Of a stretch of 64,000 nucleotides of DNA, positions 18,087 through 64,000 are shown piece by piece. Below the pieces are notes generated by a model. It was not told where the DNA came from and did not search any database. It was given only the letters and a program-made list of their open reading frames with translations. A program made the position numbers and the translations under genes. The DNA is from Natroniella sulfidigena (GTDB taxonomy: Bacteria > Bacillota > Halanaerobiia > Halobacteroidales > Halobacteroidaceae), in NCBI RefSeq assembly GCF_023223645.1, contig NZ_JALKBY010000005.1, forward strand, positions 1 to 64,000. The letters run 5' to 3'. The stretch's first letter is position 1. Every line of letters begins with the position of its first letter.

Positions 18087-18112
18087 ATAAACTTAAAATA
18101 GTTAAACTAAAA

Positions 18113-18145
18113 AATTCCTTCCATATGGAAGGAATTTCCATTTTT
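18113..18145 (+). terminator. Terminator after rsmG
   Basis: AATTCCTTCC (18113-18122) pairs with GGAAGGAATT (18127-18136) around an ATAT loop and is followed by TCCATTTTT. Confidence 0.85.
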
Positions 18146-18202
18146 GGGTTGAAAGTATAGTAGTAAGTTATCAATAAAAGTTAGATAAAGGAAGTGATGA
18201 GT

Positions 18203-19048: not shown

Positions 19049-19062
19049 TTTCACATGAAACA
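19047..19062. promoter_or_regulatory. parS-like centromere site
   Basis: AGTTTCACATGAAACA matches the conserved bacterial parS 16-mer TGTTTCACGTGAAACA at 14 of 16 positions. It overlaps the stop codon of the ParB-family gene, close to the origin, where parS sites normally cluster. Confidence 0.75.
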
Positions 19063-19078
19063 GTTGTTAATTAAAAGC

Positions 19079-19114
19079 AATCACTAAGGGATTAGAATCC
19101 TTTAGTGATTTTTG
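19079..19114 (+). terminator. Terminator after the parB-family gene
   Basis: A stem of up to 15 bp (19079-19093 with 19096-19110, one G-U pair) has a short loop and is followed by a T tract. Confidence 0.85.
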
Positions 19115-19232
19115 TATTTGAATCTTTAAGGGGGAAGATAGAGTAGACATCTAATTACTCATCAGTTATAATTGTAAATATAAATACTGTACTAATTTGT
19201 AAAAACAATTGCTAGCTAAAAGGAGGATTTTA

Positions 19233-21491: not shown

Positions 21492-21572
21492 GGAATAAAA
21501 TGACCTTCGGTTATAGTTTAAGGTTAAGTAAAATCAGTAAAAACAAAATAATAGAAGAATAAATCCCCTTTA

Positions 21573-21624
21573 AAAGACTGTATGATTTTCATTCATGAAT
21601 GAAAATCATACAGTCTTTTATTTT
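21573..21624 (+). terminator. Long perfect palindrome, probable terminator
   Basis: A perfect 48-nt palindrome (21573-21620; 22-bp stem with CATG at the centre) follows the sensor gene and continues into TTTTATTTTG. The stem starts and ends with A/T runs, so it can terminate in both directions. Confidence 0.8.
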
Positions 21625-21649
21625 GTCCTATAGTAACGACTATAACATC

Positions 21650-21700
21650 AAGTGTATCTTATCACATCTAATAAGTGTATAAAAAGTGTACACTTGTTAG
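21650..21700. promoter_or_regulatory. Candidate enhancer sites for the sigma-54 activator
   Basis: The motif AAGTGTA occurs at 21650, 21673 and 21684, with inverted copy TACACTT at 21689. The last two form the perfect palindrome AAGTGTACACTT. A wider dyad pairs CTAATAAGTGTA (21668-21679) with TACACTTGTTAG (21689-21700). Spacings of 23 and 11 bp place the repeats on one face of the helix. They lie about 110-160 bp before the sigma-54 promoter, a normal distance for enhancer binding. Confidence 0.7.
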
Positions 21701-21810
21701 TGAAAATTCAGAAAATTGTAATCTGGAACAGATTTTTGTGAATTTTTTAGCTTGCTGTCAGATTAATCCTTGTGCCACTTTTCAGAATTTTTAAACTCTA
21801 GTATAAAAAT

Positions 21811-21827
21811 TGGCATGAAAGTTGCAT
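21811..21827 (+). promoter_or_regulatory. Sigma-54 (-24/-12) promoter of the hydrogenase operon
   Basis: TGGCAT, five bases, TTGCAT matches the sigma-54 consensus TGGCAC-N5-TTGCW, with the essential GG and GC ten bases apart. It is 54 bp upstream of the first hydrogenase gene. Confidence 0.88.
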
Positions 21828-21881
21828 TTGTATATTAGTGAAGTTAATTAAGATTTTAAATTAATAAAAGGAGGTAGTGCT

Positions 21882-22280
21882 ATGGCAGAGGTAAAGAGGG
21901 TAAAGAGGACTTGTGAGCTGGAGAATAAAAGAATAAATTCATTAAGGGAATTGAATGACTTTAAAGAGGAAATTAGAGAAGAAAGAGTAGGTAATCAAAA
22001 GCGAGCAGGTGTAAGAATTACTACTGCTATGGGAAGTTGTGGAATTGCTGTTGGAGCTCAAGAGATTTTAGAAGCTATTTCAGATGAGTTGACTACTAGG
22101 GGATTAGAAGATATAAGTATTCATAATACGGGATGTATTGGGCTTTGTGAGCAAGAACCATTAGTTAAAATAAAAATAGAGGATCAACCAGCAGTCTTTT
22201 ATGGGAATTTAACTCCAGAGTTGGCCCGTGAGGTTGTTAAGAATCATATAGTCGATAATCAAATTATTGCTAGCTGTTAA
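21882..22280 (+). CDS. HndB-like [2Fe-2S] ferredoxin subunit of NAD(P)-linked hydrogenase
   Basis: A 132-aa thioredoxin-like ferredoxin protein in the position of HndB of Hnd-type hydrogenases. Motifs GSCGIAVGAQEIL and NTGCIGLCEQEPLV give three clustered Cys; a fourth ligand is not obvious, apart from Cys near residue 11 and the terminal Cys. It is the first gene after the sigma-54 promoter, with GGAGG before the ATG. Role in electron transfer within the complex is inferred from family and operon. Confidence 0.85.
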   Translation: MAEVKRVKRTCELENKRINSLRELNDFKEEIREERVGNQKRAGVRITTAMGSCGIAVGAQEILEAISDELTTRGLEDISIHNTGCIGLCEQEPLVKIKIEDQPAVFYGNLTPELAREVVKNHIVDNQIIASC

Positions 22281-22320
22281 TTAAGTTAGGCAAAAATAAT
22301 TTTTTTTTGGGGGGAAGATT

Positions 22321-22767
22321 ATGGAGGCAACCATTGAAGAGATTACAAAGGCTTTGGATTCAGAAAGAACTCCTTTGATTTCAGTTTTGCATGCTGTTCA
22401 AGCAGAATTGGGTTATTTAAGTACAGAGGGATTGAAAATAGTGGCCAAAAAGTTAGATATACCTTTGAGTAAGGTATATGGAGTAGCAACCTTCTATACT
22501 TTACTAGATACAGAAGAAAAAGGGGAGAATGTCATCAGGCTCTGTGAGAGTGCACCTTGCCATATTAAAGGAGCTACTAATATTTTAACTGAATTACAGG
22601 ATAAGTTAGATATTGATGTTGGAGAAACTACGGATGATAATAAATTCAGCTTAGAGATGACCAGTTGTTTAGGTATTTGTGCAGTTGCACCAGCAATTAT
22701 GATCAATGGTACTGTTTATGGTAATTTAACTTCTAAAAAGTTGGATTCTATTTTAGATAGATATTAA
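22321..22767 (+). CDS. hndA: NuoE/HndA-like [2Fe-2S] subunit
   Basis: A 148-aa NuoE-type subunit with an N-terminal helical region (LHAVQAELGYLSTEGLKIVA) and a thioredoxin-like [2Fe-2S] domain whose ligands are CESAPC and SCLGIC. In Hnd/HydABC hydrogenases it passes electrons between the flavin subunit and other clusters. It is second in the four-gene operon. Confidence 0.93.
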   Translation: MEATIEEITKALDSERTPLISVLHAVQAELGYLSTEGLKIVAKKLDIPLSKVYGVATFYTLLDTEEKGENVIRLCESAPCHIKGATNILTELQDKLDIDVGETTDDNKFSLEMTSCLGICAVAPAIMINGTVYGNLTSKKLDSILDRY

Positions 22768-22824
22768 TGAAAGGAGTGACTGACAATAATTTCTTATACT
22801 GAACAGGAAGTATTTGCAGATGAA

Positions 22825-24153
22825 ATGAGGCTTGTATTGAGAAATTGTGGGCATATTGACCCTGAAAATATAAAAGACTATATCACTCGGGATGGATATC
22901 AAGCTTTAGGTACTGTTGTAACTGAGTTAAAACCAATAGAAGTAATTGAGATAATAGAACAATCTGGGCTTAGAGGTAGAGGAGGAGCAGGTTTTCCAAC
23001 CGGTTTGAAATGGAAGTTTACTCATCAAGCAGCTGGAAAAGAGAAGTATGTGGTGGCTAATGCTGATGAGGGGGAGCCGGGAACTTCTAAAGATAGATTG
23101 ATTATGGAAGGAGATCCACATAGCTTGCTAGAAGCTATGGCTATTGCAGGCTATGCTATAGGTGCTAATACTGGTTATATTTATATTCGAGGAGAGTATC
23201 AACTAGCGATTAAGAGATTAAAGATTGCTATTGCTCAGGCTAAAGAGATGGGATTATTAGGTGAGAATTTATTTGACTCCGGTTTTAATTTTGAAATTAA
23301 GATTAGAGAAGGAGCTGGAGCTTATGTATGTGGTGAAGAAACCGCTTTATTAAAATCGATTGAAGGAGAGAGAGGAGAACCACAAGTAAAACCACCTTAT
23401 CCTACTAATGAAGGTTTATGGGGCCAACCTACTTTAATCAATAATGTAGAGACTTTGGCTAATATTGCGGTTATTATTAGAGAAGGTGCAGAATGGTTTA
23501 ATGAAATTGGAACGGAGGGATGTCCTGGAACTAAAGTCTTTACTTTAAGTGGAGATGTAGAGAATGAAGGAATAATTGAATTACCTATGGGAACTCCATT
23601 AAGAAGGATCATAGAAGGCTTTGGAGGCGGTATGGTTGATGATAAGGAGTTTAAGGTAGCACAGAGTGGAGGTAGTTCGGGAGGATGTATGCCAAAAGAG
23701 TTATTAGATACTCCTATGGATTATGATTCTTTAGCTGAAATTGGAATGACTTTAGGTTCAGGTGCGTTATTGGTTATGGATGAGACGCACTGTATTGTTG
23801 ATATAGCTAAATGTCTTATGCAATTTTTTAAACATGAATCTTGTGGTAAGTGTGTACCGTGTCGCGAAGGAAATAAAAGACTTTATAATAGATTAGATAA
23901 AATATCAAAAGGTGAAGGTGAGTTAGAAGATTTAGAGAGGTTAAGAGATTTAGCAGATACTATGTCCAAGACAGCCCTCTGTGGTCTAGGGCAGATGGCT
24001 CCAACTTCAATTTATACTACTCTTAAGTATTTTAAGGATGAGTATTTAACCCATATTGAAGATAATAATTGTACTACTGGTAGTTGTCGAGGTCTAGTTG
24101 ATTTGGAAGTGCAAGATAAAAGAGGGGGAAAAGACTATGGAAATAATAATTGA
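22825..24153 (+). CDS. hndC: NuoF/HndC-like flavin NAD(P)-binding hydrogenase subunit
   Basis: Diaphorase subunit that binds FMN and NAD(P)H and, in the bifurcating HydABC family, handles nucleotide and ferredoxin electrons. FMN motif GLRGRGGAGFPTGLKW, nucleotide-site region GAYVCGEETALLKSIEG and a C-terminal [4Fe-4S] ligand set (ESCGKCVPCREG ... TALCGLGQ) are visible. There is no C-terminal 2x[4Fe-4S] ferredoxin domain, unlike many HndC/HydB proteins. The ATG used lacks a close ribosome site. A good AAAGGAG (22770) points to an upstream non-ATG start (ATA 22786 or ATT 22789) adding 12-13 residues before MRLVLRNCG. The start is therefore uncertain. hydA overlaps its 3' end. Confidence 0.9.
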   Translation: MRLVLRNCGHIDPENIKDYITRDGYQALGTVVTELKPIEVIEIIEQSGLRGRGGAGFPTGLKWKFTHQAAGKEKYVVANADEGEPGTSKDRLIMEGDPHSLLEAMAIAGYAIGANTGYIYIRGEYQLAIKRLKIAIAQAKEMGLLGENLFDSGFNFEIKIREGAGAYVCGEETALLKSIEGERGEPQVKPPYPTNEGLWGQPTLINNVETLANIAVIIREGAEWFNEIGTEGCPGTKVFTLSGDVENEGIIELPMGTPLRRIIEGFGGGMVDDKEFKVAQSGGSSGGCMPKELLDTPMDYDSLAEIGMTLGSGALLVMDETHCIVDIAKCLMQFFKHESCGKCVPCREGNKRLYNRLDKISKGEGELEDLERLRDLADTMSKTALCGLGQMAPTSIYTTLKYFKDEYLTHIEDNNCTTGSCRGLVDLEVQDKRGGKDYGNNN

Positions 24154-25849
24154 TGGACAGAAGTGTGAAGCTGAGGCAGGCCAAACAGTATTAGAAGCAG
24201 CCCAACAAATAGGAATCAAAATCCCAACTCTTTGTTATCTTAAGGAAGTCAATGAAATTGGGGCTTGTAGAATCTGTATAGTAGAAATAGAAGGTAAGGG
24301 CTACCAAACAGCTTGTACCTTTCCGGTCAGTGAAGGGTTAAGAATTAAAACTACCTCTCCTGAGATTAGAAGGTTAAGGAAGTTAAATTTAGAGTTGATC
24401 TTGGCTAATCATCCGCAGGACTGTTTAAAGTGTGAGCGGAGTACTAATTGTGAATTACAGAGTTTATCTAAGGAGCTAGGAGTAGAAAAGGTAAGATTTG
24501 CTCAAGACTCTGGTGGTTATAAGTTAGATCAGAGTACTCCCTCTATTGTACGAGATTATAATAAATGTATTAAGTGTCGACGTTGTGTAAGTGTTTGTGA
24601 AAAAGTACAAGGGGTTAAGGCTTTATATCCTAATCAACGTAGTTTTAAAGCAATAATTTCTCCTGGTTATAAGCAAGAATTAAAGGATGTGTCATGTGTT
24701 TTATGTGGTCAATGTATCCATGCTTGTCCAGTAGCAGCGATTAAAGAAAAAGATGATACTGAGCGAGTTTGGCAAGTATTAAATGATGAAAACAAGCATG
24801 TTGTATTACAAATAGCACCAGCTGTGAGGGTTGCCTTAGGAGAAGAATTTGAGTTGCCCCCGGGTACGCCAATAACTGAAAAGATAGTCACAGCATGTCG
24901 CCGATTAGGGTTTGATAAAATCTTTGATACGGTATTTTCAGCAGATTTAACAATTGTCGAGGAAGGTCATGAGTTATTAGCTCGTTTAAAGAATGATGGT
25001 CCTTTACCACTATTTACTTCCTGTAGTCCAGGTTGGATTAAATATATTGAGCATTTTCATAGTGATTTATTAGATCATCTTTCTAGTTGTAAGTCACCTC
25101 AACAGATGTTTGGAGCATTAGCTAAAAGTTATTATGCTGAAACTGAAGGGATAGAGCCTGAAAATATAGTAGTAGTTTCTATTATGCCTTGTACAGCTAA
25201 AAAGTTTGAAGCTACAAGAGAAGAGATGGAGGTAAATGGGAATAGAGATATAGATATAGTACTTACTACTCGAGAATTAGCAAGAATGTTGAGGGTTTGT
25301 GGGGTAGATTTAATGAAATTACCCGCTGGAGAATTTGATGCTCCACTTGGAATTACTACTGGAGCTGGAGATATCTTTGGAATAACTGGTGGAGTAATGG
25401 AAGCTGCATTGAGAACAGTTTATGAAGAGGTAACAGAAAATGAATTAGAAAAGTTAGAGTTTAATCAGGTCAGAGGCTTTGAAGGGGTTAGAGAAGCAAG
25501 TATTGATTTAGCTGGTCAAGAAGTTAATGTAGCAATCATCAATGGTTTAGGCAATGTAGATGAGGTATTAACGGCTATTAAAGAAGGAGAAAAGGAGTAT
25601 CACTTTGTTGAAGTTATGAGTTGTCCTGGTGGATGTATTGGTGGAGGGGGCCAACCAATCCCAACTACTGAAGAGATTATAGTCCAACGTGGAAAGGGAT
25701 TGTATGATATTGATCAGGCTAAAGAGATTAGAAAATCGCATGAAAACCCTATAATAAAAGAGATATACAAAGATTATTTAGGAGAAATTGGTGGTCAAAA
25801 AGCTCATAATCTATTGCATACTACTTATCAAGAGAGAGATCAATATTAA
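24137..25849 (+). CDS. hndD: [FeFe]-hydrogenase catalytic subunit (HndD/HydA)
   Basis: Catalytic subunit, 570 aa, that makes or oxidises H2. In order it has a plant-type [2Fe-2S] domain (GACRICIVE), a His-Cys3 [4Fe-4S] site (HPQDCLKCERSTNC), two [4Fe-4S] clusters (CIKCRRCVSVC, CVLCGQCIHAC) and the H-cluster domain with canonical loops TSCSPGW, MPCTAKK and EVMSCPGGCIGGGGQP. A small-subunit-like tail ends the protein. ATG 24137 has AGAGGGGG upstream and overlaps hndC by 17 nt. It ends the hydrogenase structural operon. Confidence 0.97.
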   Translation: MEIIIDGQKCEAEAGQTVLEAAQQIGIKIPTLCYLKEVNEIGACRICIVEIEGKGYQTACTFPVSEGLRIKTTSPEIRRLRKLNLELILANHPQDCLKCERSTNCELQSLSKELGVEKVRFAQDSGGYKLDQSTPSIVRDYNKCIKCRRCVSVCEKVQGVKALYPNQRSFKAIISPGYKQELKDVSCVLCGQCIHACPVAAIKEKDDTERVWQVLNDENKHVVLQIAPAVRVALGEEFELPPGTPITEKIVTACRRLGFDKIFDTVFSADLTIVEEGHELLARLKNDGPLPLFTSCSPGWIKYIEHFHSDLLDHLSSCKSPQQMFGALAKSYYAETEGIEPENIVVVSIMPCTAKKFEATREEMEVNGNRDIDIVLTTRELARMLRVCGVDLMKLPAGEFDAPLGITTGAGDIFGITGGVMEAALRTVYEEVTENELEKLEFNQVRGFEGVREASIDLAGQEVNVAIINGLGNVDEVLTAIKEGEKEYHFVEVMSCPGGCIGGGGQPIPTTEEIIVQRGKGLYDIDQAKEIRKSHENPIIKEIYKDYLGEIGGQKAHNLLHTTYQERDQY

Positions 25850-26019
25850 GATTAGAAAGATTAAGCCTGATATTAACATAAATAGAGTTGAAAATAATAA
25901 TATATACATAAAAAGATGTTTCATCTGAAGCAGCTTTCTATGTAGGTATTCTCTATTAAAATGGCGAAGTTATTTAAAGAGCAGATTTTAGGGTAAATAG
26001 ATCAGAAATTAGACCATTT

Positions 26020-26047
26020 AGAAGCCTATCTAAAGTGATAGGCTTCT
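26020..26047 (+). promoter_or_regulatory. Hairpin before hydG
   Basis: AGAAGCCTATC pairs perfectly with GATAGGCTTCT around a 6-nt loop. It has no T tract, and the hydG ribosome site follows about 10 nt later. It may shape the leader mRNA or be the end of the upstream transcript. Confidence 0.5.
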
Positions 26048-26071
26048 AGTAGTAATAAGGAGGAAGAATAA

Positions 26072-27454
26072 ATGGGCCAAAACTTTATTAATGATGAGCA
26101 GATTAAGGGGATTTTAAATAAGGTTGAACCAACAGGAGAGAAGATTGATAGGATTATTGAAAAATCTTTAAATAAGAAGAGATTAAACAGAGAAGAAACC
26201 GCTTTATTGTTACAGGCAGAAAGAGAAGAATGGCTAGAAAAGATCTTTGCTGCAGCTAGAGAATTGAAGAATGAAATCTATGGAGATAGAATAGTATTAT
26301 TTGCTCCACTATATATTGGGAATAAATGTATTAATGACTGTAAATATTGTGGTTTTAAATCTTCTAATCAAGAGGTTGAGCGTTGTACCTTATCTAATCA
26401 AGAGCTGGAAAGACAGATTAAGGCATTAGAGGAGCAGGGCCAAAAGAGATCGATCTTTGTTTATGGAGAACATCCTGATTACGATGCAGACTTTATTGCT
26501 GAAACTGTTAAAACGGCCTATCAAATAAAGGATGACGGTGAGTTGAGGCGGATTAATATTAATGCTGCTCCTTTGGATGTTGCAGGGTATAGAAAGTTAA
26601 AAGAGGTGGGAATTGGAACTTATCAGATCTTTCAAGAGACTTATCAACAGCAAACTTATCAACAGGTTCATCCTAGCGGGCCAAAGTCAGACTTTGAGTG
26701 GAGGTTGACTGGGTTAGATCGAGCAATGGAGGCTGGACTTGATGATGTAGGGATTGGTGCTTTATTTGGTTTATATGATTGGAAGTATGAAGTGTTAGGA
26801 TTATTAGAGCATACAATTCATTTAGAAGAGACTTATAATGTTGGCCCGCATACAATCTCCTTTCCTAGATTAAAGGAAGCTACTAACTTAGAAGTTGATG
26901 ATAGATACTTAGTAACTGATCAAGAATTAAAGCGTATAGTGGCTATTTTGAGATTGGCAGTACCGTATACAGGTTTGATTTTGACAGCTAGAGAAGAACC
27001 TAAGTTGAGACAAGAGGTAATGGAGCTAGGAGTTTCTCAGATTGATGCAGGAACTAGGATTGAAATGGCAGGGTATACAGATTTTAAACAGGAACAAGAT
27101 ATTAAACGGGAGCAGTTTAAATTAGGTGATACTCGTTCTTTAAATGAAGTGATTGATGAGTTAGTTAAGGATGGTTGTTTACCATCTTTTTGTACTTCTT
27201 GTTATCGATTAGGAAGGACTGGAGAGCATTTTATGGAATTTGCTAAACCAGGATTTATTAAAAAATATTGTACACCAAATGCCTTATTAACTTTTAAAGA
27301 GTATTTAGAGGATTATGCTTCTCAGGAAACAAAAGAGATAGGAGAGAGATTAATTCAAGCAAAAGTAACAGAGATTAATGAGCAACAGCTTAAAGAGCAA
27401 GTGGTTGATAAATTGGAATTGATAGCTGATGGAGAGCGTGATCTCTACTTTTAA
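26072..27454 (+). CDS. hydG: [FeFe]-hydrogenase maturase HydG (radical SAM tyrosine lyase)
   Basis: Radical SAM enzyme that cleaves tyrosine to supply CO and CN- for the H-cluster. The 460-aa protein has the SAM-cluster motif CINDCKYC near residue 89 and the second, C-terminal cluster motif C-X2-C-X22-C (CTSCYRLGRTGEHF ... KKYC) that separates HydG from ThiH. ATG with AAGGAGG. It opens the maturation gene set hydG-hydE-hydF. Confidence 0.97.
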   Translation: MGQNFINDEQIKGILNKVEPTGEKIDRIIEKSLNKKRLNREETALLLQAEREEWLEKIFAAARELKNEIYGDRIVLFAPLYIGNKCINDCKYCGFKSSNQEVERCTLSNQELERQIKALEEQGQKRSIFVYGEHPDYDADFIAETVKTAYQIKDDGELRRININAAPLDVAGYRKLKEVGIGTYQIFQETYQQQTYQQVHPSGPKSDFEWRLTGLDRAMEAGLDDVGIGALFGLYDWKYEVLGLLEHTIHLEETYNVGPHTISFPRLKEATNLEVDDRYLVTDQELKRIVAILRLAVPYTGLILTAREEPKLRQEVMELGVSQIDAGTRIEMAGYTDFKQEQDIKREQFKLGDTRSLNEVIDELVKDGCLPSFCTSCYRLGRTGEHFMEFAKPGFIKKYCTPNALLTFKEYLEDYASQETKEIGERLIQAKVTEINEQQLKEQVVDKLELIADGERDLYF

Positions 27455-27458
27455 ACAG

Positions 27459-27541
27459 CTTAAGTTTAAGGTTAAGTCTAAGTCAAGCGTAAAAAACATA
27501 AGGGCTCTTAGTTCTTACTTGAACTTAGACTCAAACTTAGG
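27459..27541. repeat. Inverted-arm repeat element, AAG/CTT variant (element 1)
   Basis: The left arm is a run of short units ending in AAG (CTTAAGTTTAAGGTTAAG and on) and the right arm is the matching CTT-type run (CTTGAACTTAGACTCAAA). It lies between hydG and hydE and can fold into an imperfect hairpin. Confidence 0.7.
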
Positions 27542-27578
27542 ATATAGATCAATTAGTGTTGAGAAAGTAGGTGATTAA

Positions 27579-28898
27579 ATGGCTTTACGTGATAAATTTA
27601 TTACGACTGGTGGAGAGAAGAATTCAGTCTTGCTCTGTTCTTCAACTCATCATCTGTTAGAGGCAAAGCATCATTTAAGCTCATCTGGAGTTGAAATAGA
27701 ATTGGTTCCTGCTCCCTCGGGGATTGGCTCTGCTTGTACGACAGCTATTCGTTTTGTTCGAGCTAAAGAAGATTTAGTAAGGAAGTTACTAGAGGATAGT
27801 TCAATTGAGTGGACAGGTATCTATCCTATTGAGAAGAAAGATAGGATAGATACCTGGGATGGTTTATGGCAATTAAATTTAGGAAGTGAATTTGAGAGGA
27901 TATTACAGAAGGTTGCTCAAGATCAGGTATTGAGTAAAGAAGAGATTATTATTCTTTTACAAGCTCAAAGGAGTGATGAGTTGACGGCTTTATTTAAAGC
28001 AGCAAGCAAAATTCGAGCAGAAATGTTAGGAGCTACAGTTGATCTTCGAGCAGCAATTGAGTTTTCAAATTATTGTATTAAAGGTTGTAACTACTGTGGT
28101 TTACGGAGTAAACAGCAGATTAACCGCTATCGAATGAGTAAACAAGAGATCATCTCTGCTGTAGCAGAGATTAATCAATTAGGGATAGAGACAGTTATTT
28201 TACAATCTGGAGAGGATCCCTGGTATACAACTGATAAAATTATTGAGATTATTCAAGAGATCAAAGATAAATTTGGGATGAAGATTACTCTCAGTTTAGG
28301 AGAGAGGAGTAAGCAGGAGTATAAAAAGTTTAAAGAAGCAGGTGCTGACAATTATTTACTAAAGCTTGAAGCAGCTAACCGTAAACTCTTTAAACAGCTA
28401 CATCCAGATGATCAATTTAAGGTAAGGAGGGAGCATACTAAATGGTTAAAAGAGCTAGGGTATATTACTGGATCAGGTAATATAGTTGGTTTACCAGGCC
28501 AAAAGATAGAGGATTTAGCTGCTGATATTCTATTTTATAAAGAGTATGGGATTCATATGATTGGGATTGGCCCATTCTTACCAGCTAAAGGAACCCCTTA
28601 TCAAAATCATCCACCAGGGGATTTACTGTTATCTTTAAAAACAATTGCTGTAACGAGATTGGTCTGTCAAAATGTTTACATCCCTTCTACCACAGCTTTA
28701 GCATCTTTGGCAGAGGATGGGTTGACTAGAGGCTTAGAGGTAGGGGCCAACGTAATTATGCTGATTATGACTCCAACTATTTTAAGGGAGAAGTATCAGA
28801 TTTATAGTGGTAAGAATATGGTTGGCTTAAAGACAGCGATTAGCTCAATTAAGAAAGCTGGAAGGGAAGTTCCTGGATATATTAAACAAGGGATTTAA
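27579..28898 (+). CDS. hydE: [FeFe]-hydrogenase maturase HydE with N-terminal DUF3343 domain
   Basis: Radical SAM enzyme needed for building the H-cluster. Residues ~95-439 are HydE: SAM motif CIKGCNYC near residue 164, then LQSGEDPWYT and GSGNIVGLPGQ. The first ~75 residues are extra and look like a DUF3343 domain, a putative sulfur/selenium-carrier-like fold: VLLCSSTHHLLEAKHHL and the end motif SACTTAIRF. Fusion to HydE is unusual to my knowledge. ATG start. The neighbouring cysteine desulfurase suggests sulfur handling in H-cluster assembly; that is inference. Confidence 0.92.
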   Translation: MALRDKFITTGGEKNSVLLCSSTHHLLEAKHHLSSSGVEIELVPAPSGIGSACTTAIRFVRAKEDLVRKLLEDSSIEWTGIYPIEKKDRIDTWDGLWQLNLGSEFERILQKVAQDQVLSKEEIIILLQAQRSDELTALFKAASKIRAEMLGATVDLRAAIEFSNYCIKGCNYCGLRSKQQINRYRMSKQEIISAVAEINQLGIETVILQSGEDPWYTTDKIIEIIQEIKDKFGMKITLSLGERSKQEYKKFKEAGADNYLLKLEAANRKLFKQLHPDDQFKVRREHTKWLKELGYITGSGNIVGLPGQKIEDLAADILFYKEYGIHMIGIGPFLPAKGTPYQNHPPGDLLLSLKTIAVTRLVCQNVYIPSTTALASLAEDGLTRGLEVGANVIMLIMTPTILREKYQIYSGKNMVGLKTAISSIKKAGREVPGYIKQGI

Positions 28899-28913
28899 AG
28901 AAGTTACGAGAAT

Positions 28914-28941
28914 GCTGTATACATTGTATACAGCTTATTTT
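28914..28941 (+). terminator. Terminator after hydE
   Basis: GCTGTATAC pairs with GTATACAGC around ATT and is followed by TTATTTTTG. Confidence 0.8.
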
Positions 28942-28978
28942 TGATTGCAAAGTAAAGGATTATTACAAAATAGTGTAA

Positions 28979-29125
28979 CTTCAATTGATAATTGATAGTT
29001 TAAAATTGATAGTTAAAATTCAAAACCTAAACCTGTTAAACCCTTTATAAATAAGGGGTAATGTGCTTTTTTATGTTTTATGGTTTTCTAACTATCCACT
29101 ATCAATTATCAATTATAAACTGAAG
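28979..29125. repeat. Heptamer inverted-arm repeat element 2
   Basis: The left arm holds a 17-mer (28983-28999, AATTGATAATTGATAGT) whose exact reverse complement is at 29098-29114. Both are runs of 7-bp units (TTGATAA/TATCAAT). The core contains an inner hairpin CCCTTTAT / ATAAGGGG. It fills the hydE-hydF gap. Confidence 0.8.
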
Positions 29126-29153
29126 CTTTATATCAATTAAGGGAGGGAATAAT

Positions 29154-30404
29154 ATGGAGAGTACACCACAAGCTAATAGAGTGCATATTGCATTATTAGG
29201 AAGAAGAAATGTTGGTAAGTCTAGCTTAGTCAATTCTTTAACCAATCAAGAGTTAGCAGTCGTTTCTCAAGTAGCAGGAACTACTACTGATCCTGTTTAC
29301 AAAAAGATGGAGCTATTGCCTTTAGGGCCCGTGGTAATGATCGATACTGCTGGAATAGATGATCAGGGCCAACTAGGAGAGTTGCGTGTTAAAAAGACAA
29401 AGGAGGTTCTAAGTCGAACCGATTTAGCTTTATTAGTAATCGATCCTCAAGTTGGGGTAGGTGATTATGAGCAGAAATTATTAAATGAGCTACAAGAACG
29501 AGAGATTCCTGTAATTGGTGTTGTAAATAAGATAGATAAAGCTAAAGAACTTAATTTAAAAAGCTTGATTAAGCAGTTGGGTATCAAGCTTTTATCAGTT
29601 AGTGCTAAAGAAGGAACTGGGATTGAGCAATTAAAGAAGGAGATTGCCATATCTGCTCCAGAAAATTTTGAAAAAACGGATCTTATTGGCGATTTAGTTA
29701 AACCTTATGATATAGTTGTATTAGTAGTACCAATAGATATTGCTGCTCCTAAAGGAAGGTTGATTCTACCTCAAGTTCAAACCTTGCGGGATTTGCTTGA
29801 TAATAATGCTCAAGCTTTGGTAGTTAAGGAGGATGGATTAGAGCAGGCAATAGCTAAGTTAAAAGATCCACCTCAGCTTGTGGTGACTGATTCACAGGTT
29901 TTTCAGGAGGTAGCTGCTAATTTAGCTGCAGAAATTAAACTAACAGGTTTTTCTATTCTGTTTGCTCGTTATAAGGGTGATTTAGAAATTTTGACTAAAG
30001 GAGTCAAAGCTATTAAAAACTTGCAACAAGGAGCTAAGGTTTTAGTTGCTGAGTCATGTACCCATCATCGAACAACAGAGGATATAGGAACTGTTAAAAT
30101 TCCAGCTTGGCTTGAAGAAATAGCAGAAGCTGAATTAGAATTTAATCATGTAGCTGGTCGGGAATTCCCACAAGATTTGACAGCATATGATTTAATTGTT
30201 CAATGTGGAGGATGTATGACCAATCGCAAAGAAATATTATATAGAGTAAAATTGGCTGCTAGTTTAGGAATTCCAATTGTCAACTATGGAATCTTGATTG
30301 CTTATCGGTATGGGATTTTAGAGCGAGCTTTAGAGCCATTTCCAAATGCAAATAGAATTTGGCAGAATAAATCAAAGGAGGAGCAGGATGATTTATCTAG
30401 ATAA
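29154..30404 (+). CDS. hydF: [FeFe]-hydrogenase maturation GTPase HydF
   Basis: Scaffold GTPase that assembles the 2Fe subcluster and delivers it to HydA. The 416-aa protein has an N-terminal G domain (GRRNVGKSSLVNSL, DTAGIDD, NKID) and a C-terminal Fe-S binding region with ligands in ESCTHHR and QCGGCMTNRKE. ATG after GGGAGGG. The desulfurase start codon lies inside its 3' end. Confidence 0.96.
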   Translation: MESTPQANRVHIALLGRRNVGKSSLVNSLTNQELAVVSQVAGTTTDPVYKKMELLPLGPVVMIDTAGIDDQGQLGELRVKKTKEVLSRTDLALLVIDPQVGVGDYEQKLLNELQEREIPVIGVVNKIDKAKELNLKSLIKQLGIKLLSVSAKEGTGIEQLKKEIAISAPENFEKTDLIGDLVKPYDIVVLVVPIDIAAPKGRLILPQVQTLRDLLDNNAQALVVKEDGLEQAIAKLKDPPQLVVTDSQVFQEVAANLAAEIKLTGFSILFARYKGDLEILTKGVKAIKNLQQGAKVLVAESCTHHRTTEDIGTVKIPAWLEEIAEAELEFNHVAGREFPQDLTAYDLIVQCGGCMTNRKEILYRVKLAASLGIPIVNYGILIAYRYGILERALEPFPNANRIWQNKSKEEQDDLSR

Positions 30405-37394: not shown

Positions 37395-37574
37395 ATGAAA
37401 TTTGCAGTTGGAGAGGTTGTACAATTTAAAAAAGAGCATCCATGTGGTAGTGACCAATGGGAGATTTTACGGACTGGGATGGATTTTAGGGTTAAATGTT
37501 TAAAATGTGGACGAGTAATCATGTTACCACGTCCTAAATTTGAGAAGAGCGTAAAAAAAATAGTTGATAGTTAA
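37395..37574 (+). CDS. DUF951 (YyzM-like) small zinc-binding protein
   Basis: A 59-aa protein: MKFAVGEVVQFKKEHPCGSD, then VKCLKCGRVIMLPRPKFEKS. The HPCG ... CLKCG Cys residues suggest metal binding. DUF951 genes commonly lie next to ychF or mscS in Firmicutes, as here. ATG 37395 with GGGAGGTGG. The last codons (VDS-stop) are part of the following repeat element. Function unknown. Confidence 0.88.
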   Translation: MKFAVGEVVQFKKEHPCGSDQWEILRTGMDFRVKCLKCGRVIMLPRPKFEKSVKKIVDS

Positions 37575-37687
37575 TAATTGATAATTGATAGCTAAAAATA
37601 AAGCTGATCTTGATTTTATATCGTAGATGTTAGTTTTAATGGTTTTGAATTTAACTGTCAATTGTCAACTGTACACTGTAAACTAAT
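37561..37687. repeat. Heptamer inverted-arm repeat element 5
   Basis: The left arm is TAGTTGA TAGTTAA and three more units (37561-37595), the right arm AACTGTC AATTGTC AACTGTA CACTGTA from about 37652. It begins inside the end of the DUF951 gene and runs to just before the ychF ribosome site. Confidence 0.8.
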
Positions 37688-37706
37688 ATAAGGGAGCGTT
37701 TATATT

Positions 37707-38804
37707 ATGGGAATGAAATGTGGAATTGTTGGGTTACCTAATGTAGGTAAGTCAACATTGTTTAATGCAATTACTGAAGCAGGAGCTGATTCAGCTAACT
37801 ATCCATTTTGTACAATTGATCCTAATGTAGGAATTGTAGAAGTGCCAGATCAGAGATTGGACAAGTTGACAGAAGTGGTTGAACCTCAAGAGACAGTTCC
37901 TACAGCAATCGAATTTGTTGATATTGCTGGTTTGGTTAAAGGAGCTAGCAAGGGAGAAGGTTTAGGAAATAAGTTCTTAGGTAATATCAGAGAAGTTGAT
38001 GCAATTATTCATGTTGTTCGCTGTTTTGATGATGAAAACATTACTCATGTAGAGGGAGATGTAGATCCTTTACGTGATATTGAAATCATTGAGATGGAGT
38101 TAATCTTAGCTGATTTAGAAAGTGTCAGTAAGAAGTTAGAAAAGACAGAAAGACAGCTAAAAACAGGTGAGAAGATTTATCAAGAGCAGTTTGAGGTATT
38201 GACTAAATTAAATGATGCCTTAGAAGAAGGAGATCCTGCTCGTAGTGTTGACTTAACTGAGCAAGAAGAGAAGTTAATTAGAGATTTAAATCTATTGACT
38301 TTAAAGCCGGTCTTGTATGCTGCTAATGTTGCTGAAGATAAGATTGGTTTAGCAGATAATCAGCTGGTTACTACAGTTAAGGATAAAGCTGAAGATGAAG
38401 ATGCTGAAGTAGTAGTAATCAGTGCTCAAGTAGAGGCAGAAATTGCTGAGTTGAGCGGTGAGGAAAAGGAACTGTTCTTGGAAGAATTAGGTATAAGTGA
38501 ATCTGGTTTGGACAAACTAATTAAAGCTGGATATCGGTTGTTAGGGCTAATTACTTACTTTACTGCTGGGGAGAAAGAAGTTAGAGCTTGGACAGTCAAA
38601 GAAGGTGCTACAGCTCCAGAAGCTGCTGGTGTAATCCATTCTGATATGGAAAGAGGGTTTATCAGAGCTGAGGTAATAAGTTATCAAGAATTAGTAGCGG
38701 CAGGTTCTTTTGCTCAAGCTAGAGAAGCAGGTACTTTAAGAGTGGAAGGTAAAGAATATATTATTGAAGATGGCGATGTCTGTTATTTCAAATTTAATGT
38801 CTAA
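37707..38804 (+). CDS. ychF: Redox-regulated ATPase YchF (OLA1 family)
   Basis: A 365-aa P-loop ATPase of the Obg-like group that associates with ribosomes and stress responses. G1 motif GLPNVGKSTLFNAI, switch region FVDIAGLVKGASKGEGLGNK, a central coiled coil and a C-terminal TGS domain (LITYFTAGEKEVRAWTV). ATG with GGGAGCG. Confidence 0.96.
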   Translation: MGMKCGIVGLPNVGKSTLFNAITEAGADSANYPFCTIDPNVGIVEVPDQRLDKLTEVVEPQETVPTAIEFVDIAGLVKGASKGEGLGNKFLGNIREVDAIIHVVRCFDDENITHVEGDVDPLRDIEIIEMELILADLESVSKKLEKTERQLKTGEKIYQEQFEVLTKLNDALEEGDPARSVDLTEQEEKLIRDLNLLTLKPVLYAANVAEDKIGLADNQLVTTVKDKAEDEDAEVVVISAQVEAEIAELSGEEKELFLEELGISESGLDKLIKAGYRLLGLITYFTAGEKEVRAWTVKEGATAPEAAGVIHSDMERGFIRAEVISYQELVAAGSFAQAREAGTLRVEGKEYIIEDGDVCYFKFNV

Positions 38805-45662: not shown

Positions 45663-45707
45663 ATCTAATTTTCTAATTTAGAAATGAAATAAAAAAGGGG
45701 GGAGAAG

Positions 45708-49400: not shown

Positions 49401-49544
49401 GCAGATAATAGATAATAGTGAATAATGAATAGTTAAAAACAATTTAAAGATTACAGTTAAGGTCAAGTTTTTATAACTAAGGAGTTTTACTGGTTTTGAT
49501 TTTGAGATTTTAACTGTCAACTGTCAATTGTAAACTATACACTG
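49401..49544. repeat. Heptamer inverted-arm repeat element 6
   Basis: Left arm AGATAAT AGATAAT AGTGAAT AATGAAT AGTTAAA (from 49403); right arm AACTGTC AACTGTC AATTGTA AACTATA CACTG (from 49511). It starts a few bases after the purB stop and ends before the purA ribosome site. Confidence 0.8.
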
Positions 49545-56815: not shown

Positions 56816-56844
56816 TTGACTAAGTAACTTTTATTTGTTATTAT
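56816..56844 (+). promoter_or_regulatory. SigA-type promoter of the purine operon
   Basis: TTGACT, 17-bp spacer, TATTAT. The first riboswitch begins about 30 nt downstream. Confidence 0.8.
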
Positions 56845-56874
56845 AAAATTGTAAAGAAAATAGTAGTGAATAAG

Positions 56875-56947
56875 CACCTCATATAAAGGTGAGAATAAGG
56901 CTCACAAGTTTCTACCGGATAGCCATAAACTATCTGACTATGAGGGA
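56875..56947 (+). ncRNA. Guanine (purine) riboswitch aptamer
   Basis: Three-way junction of the purine riboswitch: P1 CCTCATA / TATGAGG (56877-56883 with 56939-56945), P2 GTGAG / CTCAC with loop AATAAGG, J2/3 AAGTTTCTACC and P3 GGATAG / CTATCT with loop CCATAAA. The specificity base in GACTATG is C, which predicts guanine binding. It lies in front of a second aptamer and controls the purine operon. Confidence 0.93.
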
Positions 56948-56948
56948 A

Positions 56949-57140
56949 GTGTATCTAGGGTTCCGCGATAAAAGCAGTGGATAGAGAATAATGAATAGTG
57001 AATAGCTAAGATCTTAAAGGGCTTGAACTTGAGGTTTTAACTGTCAACTGTACACTGTAAACTATTAACTGCTTTATTGGCTGGTCCAAGCGATACAGAT
57101 AATTATATTACACCGAAGGGAAAAAAGCCCAGGCGGGGAG
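56949..57140 (+). ncRNA. PRPP riboswitch aptamer (ykkC family, type 2)
   Basis: ykkC-family core: CTAGGGTTCCG (56955-56965), CTGGTCCAAGCGATAC (57081-57096), ACACCG (57110) and GGGAAAAAAGCCC (57118-57130). P1 forms from GTATC (56951-56955) with GATAC (57092-57096). Placement before purine genes and after a guanine aptamer fits the PRPP subtype. PRPP is expected to favour the aptamer and prevent the terminator. Subtype is inferred from context. Confidence 0.88.
56978..57068. repeat. Heptamer repeat element 7 inserted in the PRPP riboswitch
   Basis: Left arm GATAGAG AATAATG AATAGTG AATAGCT; right arm AACTGTC AACTGTA CACTGTA AACTATT. It lies between the two halves of the riboswitch P2 stem (AAAGCAG 56971-56977, CTGCTTT 57069-57075), so the aptamer core is intact and P2 is lengthened. 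Confidence 0.8.
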
Positions 57141-57195
57141 GTTCTACTCTTAGTTTGATTAGTAGTAGAGTCTTTCTGTCTGGGTATTTTTATAT
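57128..57195 (+). terminator. Expression-platform terminator of the purine operon
   Basis: A 21-bp stem with several G-U pairs (57128-57148 with 57164-57184) is followed by TATTTTTATATT. Its 5' arm includes the GCCCAGG of the PRPP aptamer, so ligand binding would compete with termination. Confidence 0.88.
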
Positions 57196-57254
57196 TGTAT
57201 ACAACTCATATTATTTCGTATACATCGTAAACTAATTATGGAAGGTGGGATTTG

Positions 57255-58538
57255 ATGAAGGTATTAGTGATTGGTAGTGGAGGAAGAGAGCATACTTTAG
57301 TCTGGAAGTTAAAACAGAATCAAAAGGTGACAGAGCTATTTGTAGCACCAGGTAATGCGGGGACGGATGAATTGGCTACTAATGTAGAACTAGATAGCAA
57401 TAATATTGAAGGTTTAGTAAACTTTGCTTTAGAAGAAGAGATTGATCTGACCTTTGTAGGGCCAGAAGCCCCATTGGTAGCAGGGGTTGTCGATCGTTTT
57501 GAGGAGGAAGGTTTGCAGATTTTTGGGCCAAATCAACAAGCAGCACAGTTAGAAGGGAGTAAGGTCTTTTCTAAGGATTTGATGGAGAAATATGAGATTC
57601 CAACAGCTAAATATCAAAGTTTCAGTGATGCAGAAGCAGCAATTGAATACATAAAGCAAGAAGGAGCACCAATTGTAGTTAAAGCAGAGGGTTTAGCTGC
57701 AGGTAAAGGGGTAATAGTAGCTGAGAGTGAAGAAGAAGCAATTGCAGCAGTAGAGGAGATTATGGTTGATGAAAGATTTGGTCAAGCAGGAGCCCAGGTT
57801 GTGATTGAAGAGTTTTTAATTGGTGAAGAGGCTACAGTACTAGCTTTTACTGATGGAGAAGAGATAGTTCCGATGGTAGCCTCTCAAGACCATAAGCAAG
57901 CTTATGATGGTGATCAAGGGCCAAATACTGGAGGAATGGGAGCTTATGCTCCAGCACCAGTAGTTACAGAAGAGTTGTTAAACAATGTTTACGAAAATAT
58001 TTTAAAGCGTACAATTGAAGCTTTAAAAGAAGAAGGGATTACTTTTAAAGGTGTCTTATATACGGGGTTAATGATTAATGAAGCTGAAGTGAAGGTATTA
58101 GAGTATAATGTTCGCTTTGGTGATCCTGAAGCACAGGTTGTATTACCACTACTTGAGACTGATTTAGTTGAGATAGCAGAAGCAGTGATTGCTGGCAAAC
58201 TAGAGGAGATAGAAGTAAACTGGCGTAAACAGAAGGCTGTCTGTGTAGTTATGGCATCTGGTGGTTATCCAGTTGAGTACGAGACAGGTAAAGAGATAAC
58301 AGGTTTAGAGCAGATAACTGATGAAGAGGCGATTGTCTTTCAAGCAGGGACAGCTAAGGAAGATGGCAAGCTAGTCACAGCAGGAGGTAGAGTATTAGGG
58401 GTTACTGCTTTAGGTGATGATTATCAAGCTACAATTAAGCAGGCTTATCAAGCTGTGGAAAAAATAGATTTTGCTGGGGCTCATTATCGGACTGATATTG
58501 GAGCTAAGGCAGTAAAAAGAGTTGACAGTGAACAGTAA
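57255..58538 (+). CDS. purD: Phosphoribosylamine-glycine ligase
   Basis: GAR synthetase, step two of IMP synthesis. 427 aa ATP-grasp enzyme: VIGSGGREHTLVWKLKQ at the start, VVKAEGLAAGKGVIVAES and QDHKQAYDGDQGPNTGGMGA. ATG 57255 with GGAAGGTGGG. First gene of the operon. Its last codons (VDSEQ-stop) fall in repeat element 8. Confidence 0.96.
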   Translation: MKVLVIGSGGREHTLVWKLKQNQKVTELFVAPGNAGTDELATNVELDSNNIEGLVNFALEEEIDLTFVGPEAPLVAGVVDRFEEEGLQIFGPNQQAAQLEGSKVFSKDLMEKYEIPTAKYQSFSDAEAAIEYIKQEGAPIVVKAEGLAAGKGVIVAESEEEAIAAVEEIMVDERFGQAGAQVVIEEFLIGEEATVLAFTDGEEIVPMVASQDHKQAYDGDQGPNTGGMGAYAPAPVVTEELLNNVYENILKRTIEALKEEGITFKGVLYTGLMINEAEVKVLEYNVRFGDPEAQVVLPLLETDLVEIAEAVIAGKLEEIEVNWRKQKAVCVVMASGGYPVEYETGKEITGLEQITDEEAIVFQAGTAKEDGKLVTAGGRVLGVTALGDDYQATIKQAYQAVEKIDFAGAHYRTDIGAKAVKRVDSEQ

Positions 58539-58665
58539 GCAGTTTACAGTTAAGTTCAAAATCTTAAAACTTAAAATCCATGAAAAGCTTTAGAATTATA
58601 GATCTGAAGTGGTTTTGAGTTTAGATTTTTAACTGTCAACTGTAAACCGTAAACTGTAAACTCTA
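58522..58665. repeat. Heptamer inverted-arm repeat element 8
   Basis: Left arm TTGACAG TGAACAG TAAGCAG TTTACAG TTAAG; right arm AACTGTC AACTGTA AACCGTA AACTGTA AACTCTA (58631-58665). The left arm encodes the end of purD. Confidence 0.85.
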
Positions 58666-58683
58666 TGAAATGGAGGTGTTATT

Positions 58684-59847
58684 ATGCTTCAGGAAGAAAT
58701 TACAAATAAAAGGGTTGGAATTATTGGTGGGGGCCAACTAGGAAAGATGATGATCTTAGAGGCTAAGAAGATGGACTTTGAAGTTATTATCTTAGACCCT
58801 AGTTCTGACTGTCCTGCTAGTAGTATTGCTGATCAACAGATTGTTGCTCAATTTGATGACCAGCAAGCAATTAAGCAGTTAGCTGACCAGTCTGATGTTG
58901 TAACTTATGAATTTGAGCATATTAATGTTGAGATCTTAAAGCGATTAGAGAAGCAAGGTTATCAAACCTATCCGACACCGACCAGTTTAGAAGTTATTCA
59001 AGATAAATATCAGCAAAAAAAGAAGTTGTTTACAGCAGATCTTCCTGTACCTGAGTTTAAGAAGGTCAGTACAGTAAAAGAGATTAAAGAGGTGGCTGAT
59101 CAATTTGGTTATCCTGTAATGTTAAAGAGTTGTACTGGTGGTTATGATGGCAAAGGTAATGCTTTAATTAATGAAGAAGCTGAGGTTGAATCAGCCTATC
59201 AGGAGTTAGGGGAAGGCCAACAACCATTGATGGCAGAACAATTTATTCCGTTTACTAAAGAAATATCTGTGATTATCTGTCGTGATACGGCTGGTAAGAG
59301 AGTAGTTTATCCAATTGCAGAAAATGAGCATCAAAATAGTATCTTAATTGAGACTAAGGTTCCTGCTCAAATTACAGAAGAAGTAAAGAAAGAAGCAATA
59401 GAGTTGGCCCGGCAGGTGATTGATGTTTTTGCAGGGGTTGGTATCTTCTGTATTGAGATGTTTACGACTGAAAACGGGGAAGTACTAATTAATGAGATAG
59501 CACCTCGTCCTCACAACTCAGGGCATTATAGTATTGAAGGGGGTATTACCTCTCAATTTGAACAACATATTAGGGCAATTACAGGTTTACCATTAGGGCC
59601 AACGACTTTATTGCGACCGATAGTGATGCGGAATTTACTAGGAGGTAAACAAGAAGGTCAAGCAGTGGTTGATGGAATTGAGGATGCTTTACAAGTTCCA
59701 GAGACTAAAGTTCATATTTATGGTAAACAAGAGTCTTATTATGAACGGAAGATGGGCCATCTTACTGTGATGGCAGATGATGTAGAGCAAGCAGCTGAAC
59801 GGGCGAGTAAAGCTGAGAGCTTGATTCAAATTAGGGGGAGTAATTAG
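58684..59847 (+). CDS. purK: N5-carboxyaminoimidazole ribonucleotide synthetase
   Basis: ATP-grasp enzyme making N5-CAIR from AIR and bicarbonate. 387 aa: VGIIGGGQLGKMMILEAKKM, MLKSCTGGYDGKGN, and EIAPRPHNSGHYSIEGG. ATG with GGAGG. Works with PurE downstream. Confidence 0.96.
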   Translation: MLQEEITNKRVGIIGGGQLGKMMILEAKKMDFEVIILDPSSDCPASSIADQQIVAQFDDQQAIKQLADQSDVVTYEFEHINVEILKRLEKQGYQTYPTPTSLEVIQDKYQQKKKLFTADLPVPEFKKVSTVKEIKEVADQFGYPVMLKSCTGGYDGKGNALINEEAEVESAYQELGEGQQPLMAEQFIPFTKEISVIICRDTAGKRVVYPIAENEHQNSILIETKVPAQITEEVKKEAIELARQVIDVFAGVGIFCIEMFTTENGEVLINEIAPRPHNSGHYSIEGGITSQFEQHIRAITGLPLGPTTLLRPIVMRNLLGGKQEGQAVVDGIEDALQVPETKVHIYGKQESYYERKMGHLTVMADDVEQAAERASKAESLIQIRGSN

Positions 59848-62665: not shown

Positions 62666-62693
62666 ATATTGTGGCACTTTTGTGCCACAATAT
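62666..62693 (+). promoter_or_regulatory. Strong hairpin between purC and purF
   Basis: ATATTGTGGCAC pairs perfectly with GTGCCACAATAT around TTTT. No T tract follows, so it is more likely an mRNA stability or processing element than a terminator. Confidence 0.6.
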
Positions 62694-62695
62694 AG

Positions 62696-62837
62696 TTGAC
62701 AGTTTACGGTTTACAGTTTACAGTTAAAGGTCAAAACATTAAAAAATTAAGATCTCTAAAACTCTTATATAATCATTAGTAAGTTTTATGGTTTTAATGG
62801 TCTTAACTGTCAACTGTCAACTGTTCACTGTATACTG
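62696..62837. repeat. Heptamer inverted-arm repeat element 10
   Basis: Left arm TTGACAG TTTACGG TTTACAG TTTACAG TTAAAGG; right arm AACTGTC AACTGTC AACTGTT CACTGTA TACTG (from 62815). An additional remnant of another left-arm type (AATGAAT AGATAAT AGTGAAA, 62646-62666) precedes the hairpin at 62666. Confidence 0.85.
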
Positions 62838-62856
62838 ATATAAAGGGGAGGAAGAG

Positions 62857-64000
62857 ATGAAAAAAGATTATTCACTCCATAATAAAGATTTATCTGATAA
62901 GATGGAAGAGGAATGTGGTGTCTTTGGAATCTATGCTAATAAAAAAGTGGATGTATCTAATTTAAGCTATTTAGGTCTTCATGCTTTACAGCATCGTGGC
63001 CAAGAGAGTGCAGGGATTTGTGTTAATCATAAAGGTGAATTTAGAAATTATAAAGATATGGGATTGGTTACTAATGTATTTGATGAAGAGAAGTTAGCAG
63101 AATTAACTGGGGAGATGGCAATTGGTCATGTCCGTTATTCAACGACAGGTTCTAGTTTATTAGCTAATGCTCAACCATTATTGATCAATTCGATCAAGGG
63201 AGATCTTGCTCTTGCTCATAATGGTAATTTGGTCAATAGTGCTGAAATGAGGGCTAACTTAGAACAACAAGGCTCTATTTTCCATTCAACGCTTGATACA
63301 GAGGTAATAGCTCATCTAGTAGCTCGTTCATTTAAAGATAACATTATAGAAGCTTTTACTCATAGCCTACAACAGATTAGAGGGGCGTACAGTATTGTTG
63401 CGATGACTGAAGATAGTTTAATAGCAGCTAGAGACCCGCATGGTTTTCGACCACTGTCTATAGGTAAGTTAGGGGATAGTTATGTTGTTGCTTCAGAAAG
63501 CTGTGCTTTTGATATTATTGGGGCTAAGTTAATCAGAGATGTTAATCCAGGAGAGATGGTAATTATCAATGAAGATGGGGTTAATAGTATCTATTATGGG
63601 GAGCGAGAGTTAAATAACTTCTGTGTCTTTGAATTTATCTATTTTGCTCGACCAGATAGTGTGATTGGAGGACAGAGTGTTCACTTGGCCCGTCGAGAGA
63701 TGGGGCGACAGTTGGCTAAGGAGATGGAAGTGGAAGCTGATTTAGTAATTCCTGTTCCTAGTTCTGGAATTCCAGCTGCATTAGGTTTTGCTGAGGAGTC
63801 AGGAATTCCTTATGAGCAAGGGATTTTAAGGAATAAGTATGTTGGTCGAACTTTTATCCAACCGACTCAAGAGATCAGAAATTTAAAGGTCAAGATCAAG
63901 TTAAATCCAATCAAGGAGATTATCAAAGGTAAGAAAGTTGTTTTAATAGATGATTCGATTGTGAGAGGAACAACGAGTAAACTAATTATTAAAGCTGTTA
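62857..64000 (+). CDS. purF: Amidophosphoribosyltransferase (cut by the window end)
   Basis: First committed enzyme of purine synthesis, transferring glutamine ammonia to PRPP. It has the Ntn glutaminase domain (EEECGVFGIYANK, with nucleophile Cys after a propeptide of about 19 residues; LQHRGQESAGICV; VRYSTTGSS) and the phosphoribosyltransferase domain up to VVLIDDSIVRGTTSKLI. The 381 codons seen lack the C-terminus. ATG with GGGGAGG. Last gene seen in the operon. Confidence 0.95.
   Translation, partial: MKKDYSLHNKDLSDKMEEECGVFGIYANKKVDVSNLSYLGLHALQHRGQESAGICVNHKGEFRNYKDMGLVTNVFDEEKLAELTGEMAIGHVRYSTTGSSLLANAQPLLINSIKGDLALAHNGNLVNSAEMRANLEQQGSIFHSTLDTEVIAHLVARSFKDNIIEAFTHSLQQIRGAYSIVAMTEDSLIAARDPHGFRPLSIGKLGDSYVVASESCAFDIIGAKLIRDVNPGEMVIINEDGVNSIYYGERELNNFCVFEFIYFARPDSVIGGQSVHLARREMGRQLAKEMEVEADLVIPVPSSGIPAALGFAEESGIPYEQGILRNKYVGRTFIQPTQEIRNLKVKIKLNPIKEIIKGKKVVLIDDSIVRGTTSKLIIKAV

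Follow-up and report, generated by a model that had tools for sequence, protein, structure and literature searches.

A dispersed heptad-repeat hairpin at the P1b tip of a tandem guanine-PRPP riboswitch in Natroniella, a probably tolerated extension

The purD leader of the salt-loving bacterium Natroniella sulfidigena contains a tandem guanine-PRPP riboswitch, in whose PRPP aptamer a long hairpin made of dispersed heptad repeats occupies the tip of helix P1b. We consider it likely that this hairpin is a tolerated and structurally neutral extension, derived from one ancestral insertion that has been kept while its repeats turned over. At the level of sequence, the intact core, the hairpin, its membership in a repeat family and the presence of such inserts at this site in three genera are established, and selection most likely tolerates the insert rather than requiring it. 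The window, that is, the whole stretch of 64,000 nt that was analysed (contig NZ_JALKBY010000005.1, positions 1 to 64,000), contains the following features at this locus.

56816-56844, + strand: sigma-70-like promoter, TTGACT-17-TATTAT with TG before the second hexamer (pattern match)
56859-56960, + strand: guanine-type purine riboswitch aptamer (RF00167)
56950-56965, + strand: 5' half of the PRPP aptamer, with the P1 5' strand TGTATC and the conserved TAGGGTTCCG (RF00442, alignment with nine relatives)
56966-57080, + strand: P1b tip of 115 nt, composed of the basal P1b arms CGATAAA/TTTATTG and the heptad-repeat hairpin (RF00442 alignment, fold, relatives)
56970-57077, + strand: heptad-repeat hairpin element, bounded by homology to other genomic copies
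about 56970-57013, + strand: left arm of the element, GTGAATA-type heptads (homology)
about 57014-57036, + strand: inner loop of the element (homology)
about 57037-57077, + strand: right arm of the element, AACTGTC-type heptads with the CTGCTTT end (homology)
57081-57137, + strand: 3' half of the PRPP aptamer, with CTGGTCCAAGC, the P1 3' strand GATACA and P3 (GGGA...GCCC) (RF00442, alignment of relatives)
57128-57191, + strand: expression platform, a long terminator-like hairpin followed by a U run (predicted fold)
57252-58538, + strand: purD (TIGR00877), with an alternative ATG at 57255

Upstream of purD, a guanine aptamer is directly followed by a PRPP (ykkC-type) aptamer. Such a tandem architecture has been published as ykkC subtype 2b (Sherlock et al., 2018; PMC5912903), and the leader has the context of this subtype, since genes of de novo purine biosynthesis lie downstream, the guanine aptamer is located only a few nt upstream of the PRPP aptamer and the two share a terminator. 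In the published logic, the terminator is favoured by guanine and overridden by PRPP, and the aptamers compete (PMC5912903). The gene order behind the leader, with the ORFs identified by reading, is purD-purK-purE-purB-purC-purF, where the identity of purD is supported by the profile TIGR00877; the tandem riboswitch probably controls purD and the genes behind it. The promoter pattern is suitably placed upstream of the leader, and the match alone is weak because one was found against 2.5 expected in shuffles. According to the fold prediction, the 5' arm of the terminator-like hairpin overlaps the 3' strand of P3, and this long platform hairpin was not listed by a simple terminator scan.

The guanine aptamer matches the Rfam model RF00167 with 83.4 bits, well above the gathering score of 37. 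The PRPP aptamer matches RF00442 with only 42.3 bits (E 3e-6), below the gathering score of 63 bits, and the alignment contains a gap of roughly 100 nt. The ykkC core TAGGGTTCCG, CTGGTCC, P1 and P3 are nevertheless all present in the RF00442 and 10-genome alignments, no invariant core base is missing, and the core is near-invariant across the window's genome and nine relatives, which bears out the proposal of an earlier note on this DNA that the conserved core segments are intact.

The 115-nt tip is located between the conserved GGGTTCCG and CTGGTCC, where the tip usually measures about 7-30 nt. Positions 56972-57077 are predicted to fold into a single hairpin (-31.3 kcal/mol, z -5.3, with none of 200 shuffles as good), in which the pairing is imperfect with small internal loops because the two arms consist of different heptad types, GTGAATA and AACTGTC. 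The earlier note had regarded this hairpin as an extension of P2 that leaves the aptamer unbroken. The second part agrees with our folding results, and the element does extend a peripheral helix; the helix, however, is P1b, since in the crystal-structure naming, read together with the Rfam structure line, the inserted helix is P1b and P2 denotes a separate hairpin (PMC6031431). For the window's leader, the mean predicted pairing of P1 is 0.95 in the native sequence, 0.92 when the insert is removed and 0.39 when the inside of the insert is shuffled (0/200 shuffles as good). Such a clear contrast between native and shuffled inserts was obtained in two of the eight leaders with the element, namely those of the window and of xpt in G010, and a partial one for N. 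acetigena, G011 xpt and G012. For Halonatronum and for purD in G010 and G011, P1 was not predicted by the model even without the insert. In the six leaders other than the two clear ones, either 8-43% of the shuffles do as well or the prediction of P1 is poor without the insert. The folding result is thus support rather than proof, because secondary-structure prediction ignores the tertiary contacts of the aptamer.

Where the element begins and ends could be judged from other copies. On the left, homology reaches about 56969 (C32:76111-76155, 89%, to tip position 4), and on the right it reaches 57077-57078. Copies in C27, C29, C10, C31 and C3, which have unrelated flanks, end in A(C/T)TGCTTT, and CTTT follows 7 of 83 distinct array ends (6 of 82 excluding the window's own) compared with 0.8% in the background. 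AAAGCAG and CTGCTTT, between which the element had been supposed to lie exactly as parts of the riboswitch, therefore most likely belong to the element as its termini, since other copies have ends of this kind. The native P1b would then be CGATAAA/TTTATTG or less, and some of that may also be element.

The repeat element itself, as had been claimed, is real and found elsewhere. A search of its own genome with the insert gave 61 matching places, the insert's own site counted, and other matches in this genome number about 50. The copies match it at 77-97% over 34-71 nt, at unrelated sites and with the same ends. In 84 kb (the window and contiguous flank), 11 strict NAYTRTN heptad arrays were found compared with 0.1 in block shuffles, and arrays with a lag of 7 are commoner than those with lags of 5, 6, 8 or 9. 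Many of the arrays form inverted pairs around an AAAATC...GATTTT loop, and the insert, with its period-7 NAYTRTN-type arrays in an inverted pair, belongs to this family. Other members in the window include the following.

37559-37680, no strand assigned: heptad hairpin with both arms (array scan, reading)
49414-49539, no strand assigned: heptad hairpin upstream of purA; in N. acetigena the same site is occupied by different heptads (array scan, locus comparison)
58515-58662, no strand assigned: heptad hairpin in the purD-purK spacer; N. acetigena has an element at this site too (locus comparison)
62689-62832, no strand assigned: heptad hairpin in the purC-purF spacer; N. acetigena has an element at this site too (array scan, locus comparison)

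The element sites in the purine cluster are common to both Natroniella species, with changed heptads, and some other sites, such as 45663-45707, differ between them by presence or absence. No target duplication was recognised at the heptad elements. Densities of arrays in the relatives are not comparable, since several of their regions read as N. We also observed that in several heptad hairpins only a few bases separate the end of the right arm from the following gene's ribosome-binding site (37651-37707, 58629-58685 and 62803-62859). In addition, several copies have an extended flank in common (...CACTGCGAAACATTCCTCATGATAG...) ahead of the right heptad arm, at loci L003, L004, L005 and L013 around 1370-1540 (C13, C1), and in reversed orientation at L002 and L021, which gives the heptad array the look of a terminus of some larger repeat. 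Many heptad arms (loci L002-L005, L014, L021, L024-L026 and L028) are directly adjoined by a second palindrome, GATAT(A/T)(A/T)AGTGGCA...TGCCACT(A/T)(A/T)ATATC.

The two Natroniella genomes also differ at 18087-30345 of the window, a stretch of 12.3 kb in place of which N. acetigena has 54 nt (G009:C106), with the surrounding gene order kept. This stretch encodes a group A6 [FeFe] hydrogenase with NuoE/NuoF-like subunits, the maturases HydE, HydF and HydG, a sigma-54 type regulator with hydrogenase-like N-terminal matches and a ParB-like ORF.

To place the insert among relatives, the purD loci were read in all 13 genomes of the order, among which G000 is the window's genome, G009 is Natroniella acetigena, G008 is Halonatronum saccharophilum, and G010-G012 are three species of a third genus, which from the family we guess to be Orenia. 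The nearest relative in the searches is N. acetigena of the same genus, with 91% identity in PurD. Heptad tips are present at the purine-operon leaders of G000 (115 nt), G009 (131 nt), G012 (126 nt), G011 (114 nt), G010 (114 nt) and G008 (105 nt), and in G010 and G011 a second tandem riboswitch, located before xpt, has a heptad tip as well. Short tips of 10-23 nt are found in five genomes of the sister family and in G007, which belongs to the same family as Natroniella. In G006, the tip is damaged, and a heptad-like residue GGGTCAACTATACTTTTTGGTCC remains, which looks like a decayed insert. The riboswitches of G006 and G007 were located with a covariance model built for this analysis. In other Bacillota, tips measure 7-80 nt with a median of 21 (43 parsable loci, a sample weighted to the best matches and long spans), and heptad arrays were not seen in the longer ones that were read, including those of 41-80 nt; the helix thus appears generally tolerant of length. 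A one-off insertion in the window's strain, as had been implied, is not supported; given that three genera carry heptad hairpins at the site, the insertion seems to be old, and its repeats to turn over rapidly. Long stems lacking repeat similarity, which the earlier note had named as evidence against an inserted repeat, are absent from the family, whose long tips are without exception heptad hairpins, and occur elsewhere in the phylum (41-80 nt).

The insert evolves much faster than the aptamer around it. Between the two Natroniella species, the core is 95% identical and the insert 62%, with a shuffled baseline of 51%; the corresponding values for G011 and G012 are 96% and 74%. Between genera, the inserts show little residual similarity (58-69%), and their arms cannot be aligned, since entire heptads differ. 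Inspection by eye of G011 and G012 for compensatory turnover of the arms revealed that heptads of the G011 left arm were lost without a matching loss in the right arm, which argues against tight selection on arm pairing. In searches against the 13 genomes, the longest or most numerous matches of each insert are in its own genome or genus, with two exceptions in number: the Halonatronum insert has 79 matches in the window's genome compared with 78 in its own, and that of G012 has 64 in each of the two Natroniella genomes compared with 48 in itself. Within G010, identity between the leaders of purD and xpt is 84% in the insert and 71% in the core, whereas for the orthologous xpt leaders of G010 and G011 it is 88% in the core and 58% in the insert, a pattern explained by conversion between leaders within G010. 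A similar pattern in G011 is weak.

Then, was the site filled once or repeatedly? The PurD tree is too unresolved for placing the insert, and the RpoB tree was used instead. In the latter, the family forms a clade (100/100), Natroniella is the first branch (91/90), and G006 and G007, in which a full insert is lacking, group together (99/99) as the sister of Halonatronum and G010-G012. Because this tree needs two changes, one gain with one loss fits equally well as two gains. Consequently, the P1b tip could be a hot spot that received heptad hairpins independently in Natroniella and in the lineage of Halonatronum and G010-G012, a reading to which we give real weight while holding it less probable than a single insertion; besides the tree, the low similarity of inserts from different genera speaks for it. 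Against it, the right junction ACTGCTTT(T)..TGG is common to Natroniella and G012, although CTTT is found at just about 8% of array ends in the window's genome, and the residue in G006 resembles a decayed insert. From these sequence features, we lean towards one gain. An independent repeat insertion in N. acetigena was also considered, and is countered by the right junction that its insert has in common with the window's.

Under a single insertion, the event would have preceded the split of the family's genera, and the insert would have been lost or eroded in the lineage of G006 and G007. Slippage of heptads, correction across the hairpin and conversion between copies could then replace the sequence while foldability is kept. 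Since the two ends of the element pair with each other, the RNA would depart from P1b and return to it at a single point, the two flanking parts of the conserved core would remain together, and the switch should keep its published logic.

We regard it as unlikely that the insert acts as a rapidly evolving module, exchanged by conversion among the riboswitches of one genome, so that part of a conserved regulatory RNA follows the repeat family rather than its own lineage, and that its added transcription length tunes the decision between guanine and PRPP. A more specific regulatory job, in which about 100 nt of additional transcription delays completion of the PRPP aptamer and lets the guanine aptamer fold first, seems slightly less likely again. 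Eight leaders from three genera have indeed retained the insert along with the core, the insert invariably forming a hairpin, and the published logic gate relies on competition between the two aptamers (PMC5912903). However, G007 and the sister family work with tips of 10-23 nt, the length and sequence of the insert are unconstrained, and the same elements occupy many ordinary spacers. Of the two words in the earlier note, "domesticated" and "tolerated", the latter is the better.

It is improbable that the insert has inactivated the PRPP arm and left a guanine-only switch in the window, which keeps every invariant core base and whose core is 95% identical to that of N. acetigena, even if decay of this kind may be seen in relatives. 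The xpt leader of G012 (about 1100-1500 of L282) retains the guanine aptamer, the heptad element and the terminator; its PRPP arm is probably dead, because GGGTTCCG and CTGGTCC are missing, and TTCCG is lost in G006. In the G012 leader, a switch with two inputs would have decayed naturally into one with a single input. Least probable of all is that nothing was inserted and an ordinary long P1b grew in place with heptads gained by slippage, since, readily as the helix grows in other Bacillota with non-heptad tips, the copies of the insert in its own genome lie at unrelated sites with the same ends, and other loci match 11-125 nt of the 131-nt N. acetigena insert, at up to 83%.

Our literature search found no direct case of a mobile element inside a riboswitch aptamer, and no report on repeats in the genera concerned. 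Compared with other PRPP riboswitches, the window's aptamer differs in its 115-nt P1b tip of dispersed repeat, the parsed tips of the phylum being 7-80 nt and those read non-heptad. STRR heptamer repeats, in work by Vioque from 1997 that is cited in PMC2858038, reportedly occur within cyanobacterial RNase P RNA, where they are apparently tolerated. This may be the closest precedent, as heptamer repeats lie inside a structured functional RNA; the repeat, the RNA and the phylum are different, and the Natroniella element, compared across genera, forms a hairpin with two arms inside a ligand-binding regulator. Abundant intergenic heptamers are also known as direct repeats of TAACTGA, mostly before start codons (MacGregor, 2015; PMC4679880). 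Some of the Natroniella heptads are close to them in sequence (AACTG core), and there is a likeness to long simple sequence repeats as well. Unlike those direct repeats, the Natroniella heptads form inverted array pairs around a loop, with recurring ends.

The finding carries a warning, namely that covariance models can lose such members, as the Rfam model scores the window's PRPP aptamer below threshold. It also provides a natural series, in which one riboswitch occurs with and without a large repeat hairpin while the aptamer cores are near-identical. The series includes leaders with an eroded core (G012 xpt and G006 purD), as well as the two riboswitches of G010, which resemble each other more in the insert than in the flanks. 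It allows a direct test of how far a peripheral helix can grow before regulation changes.
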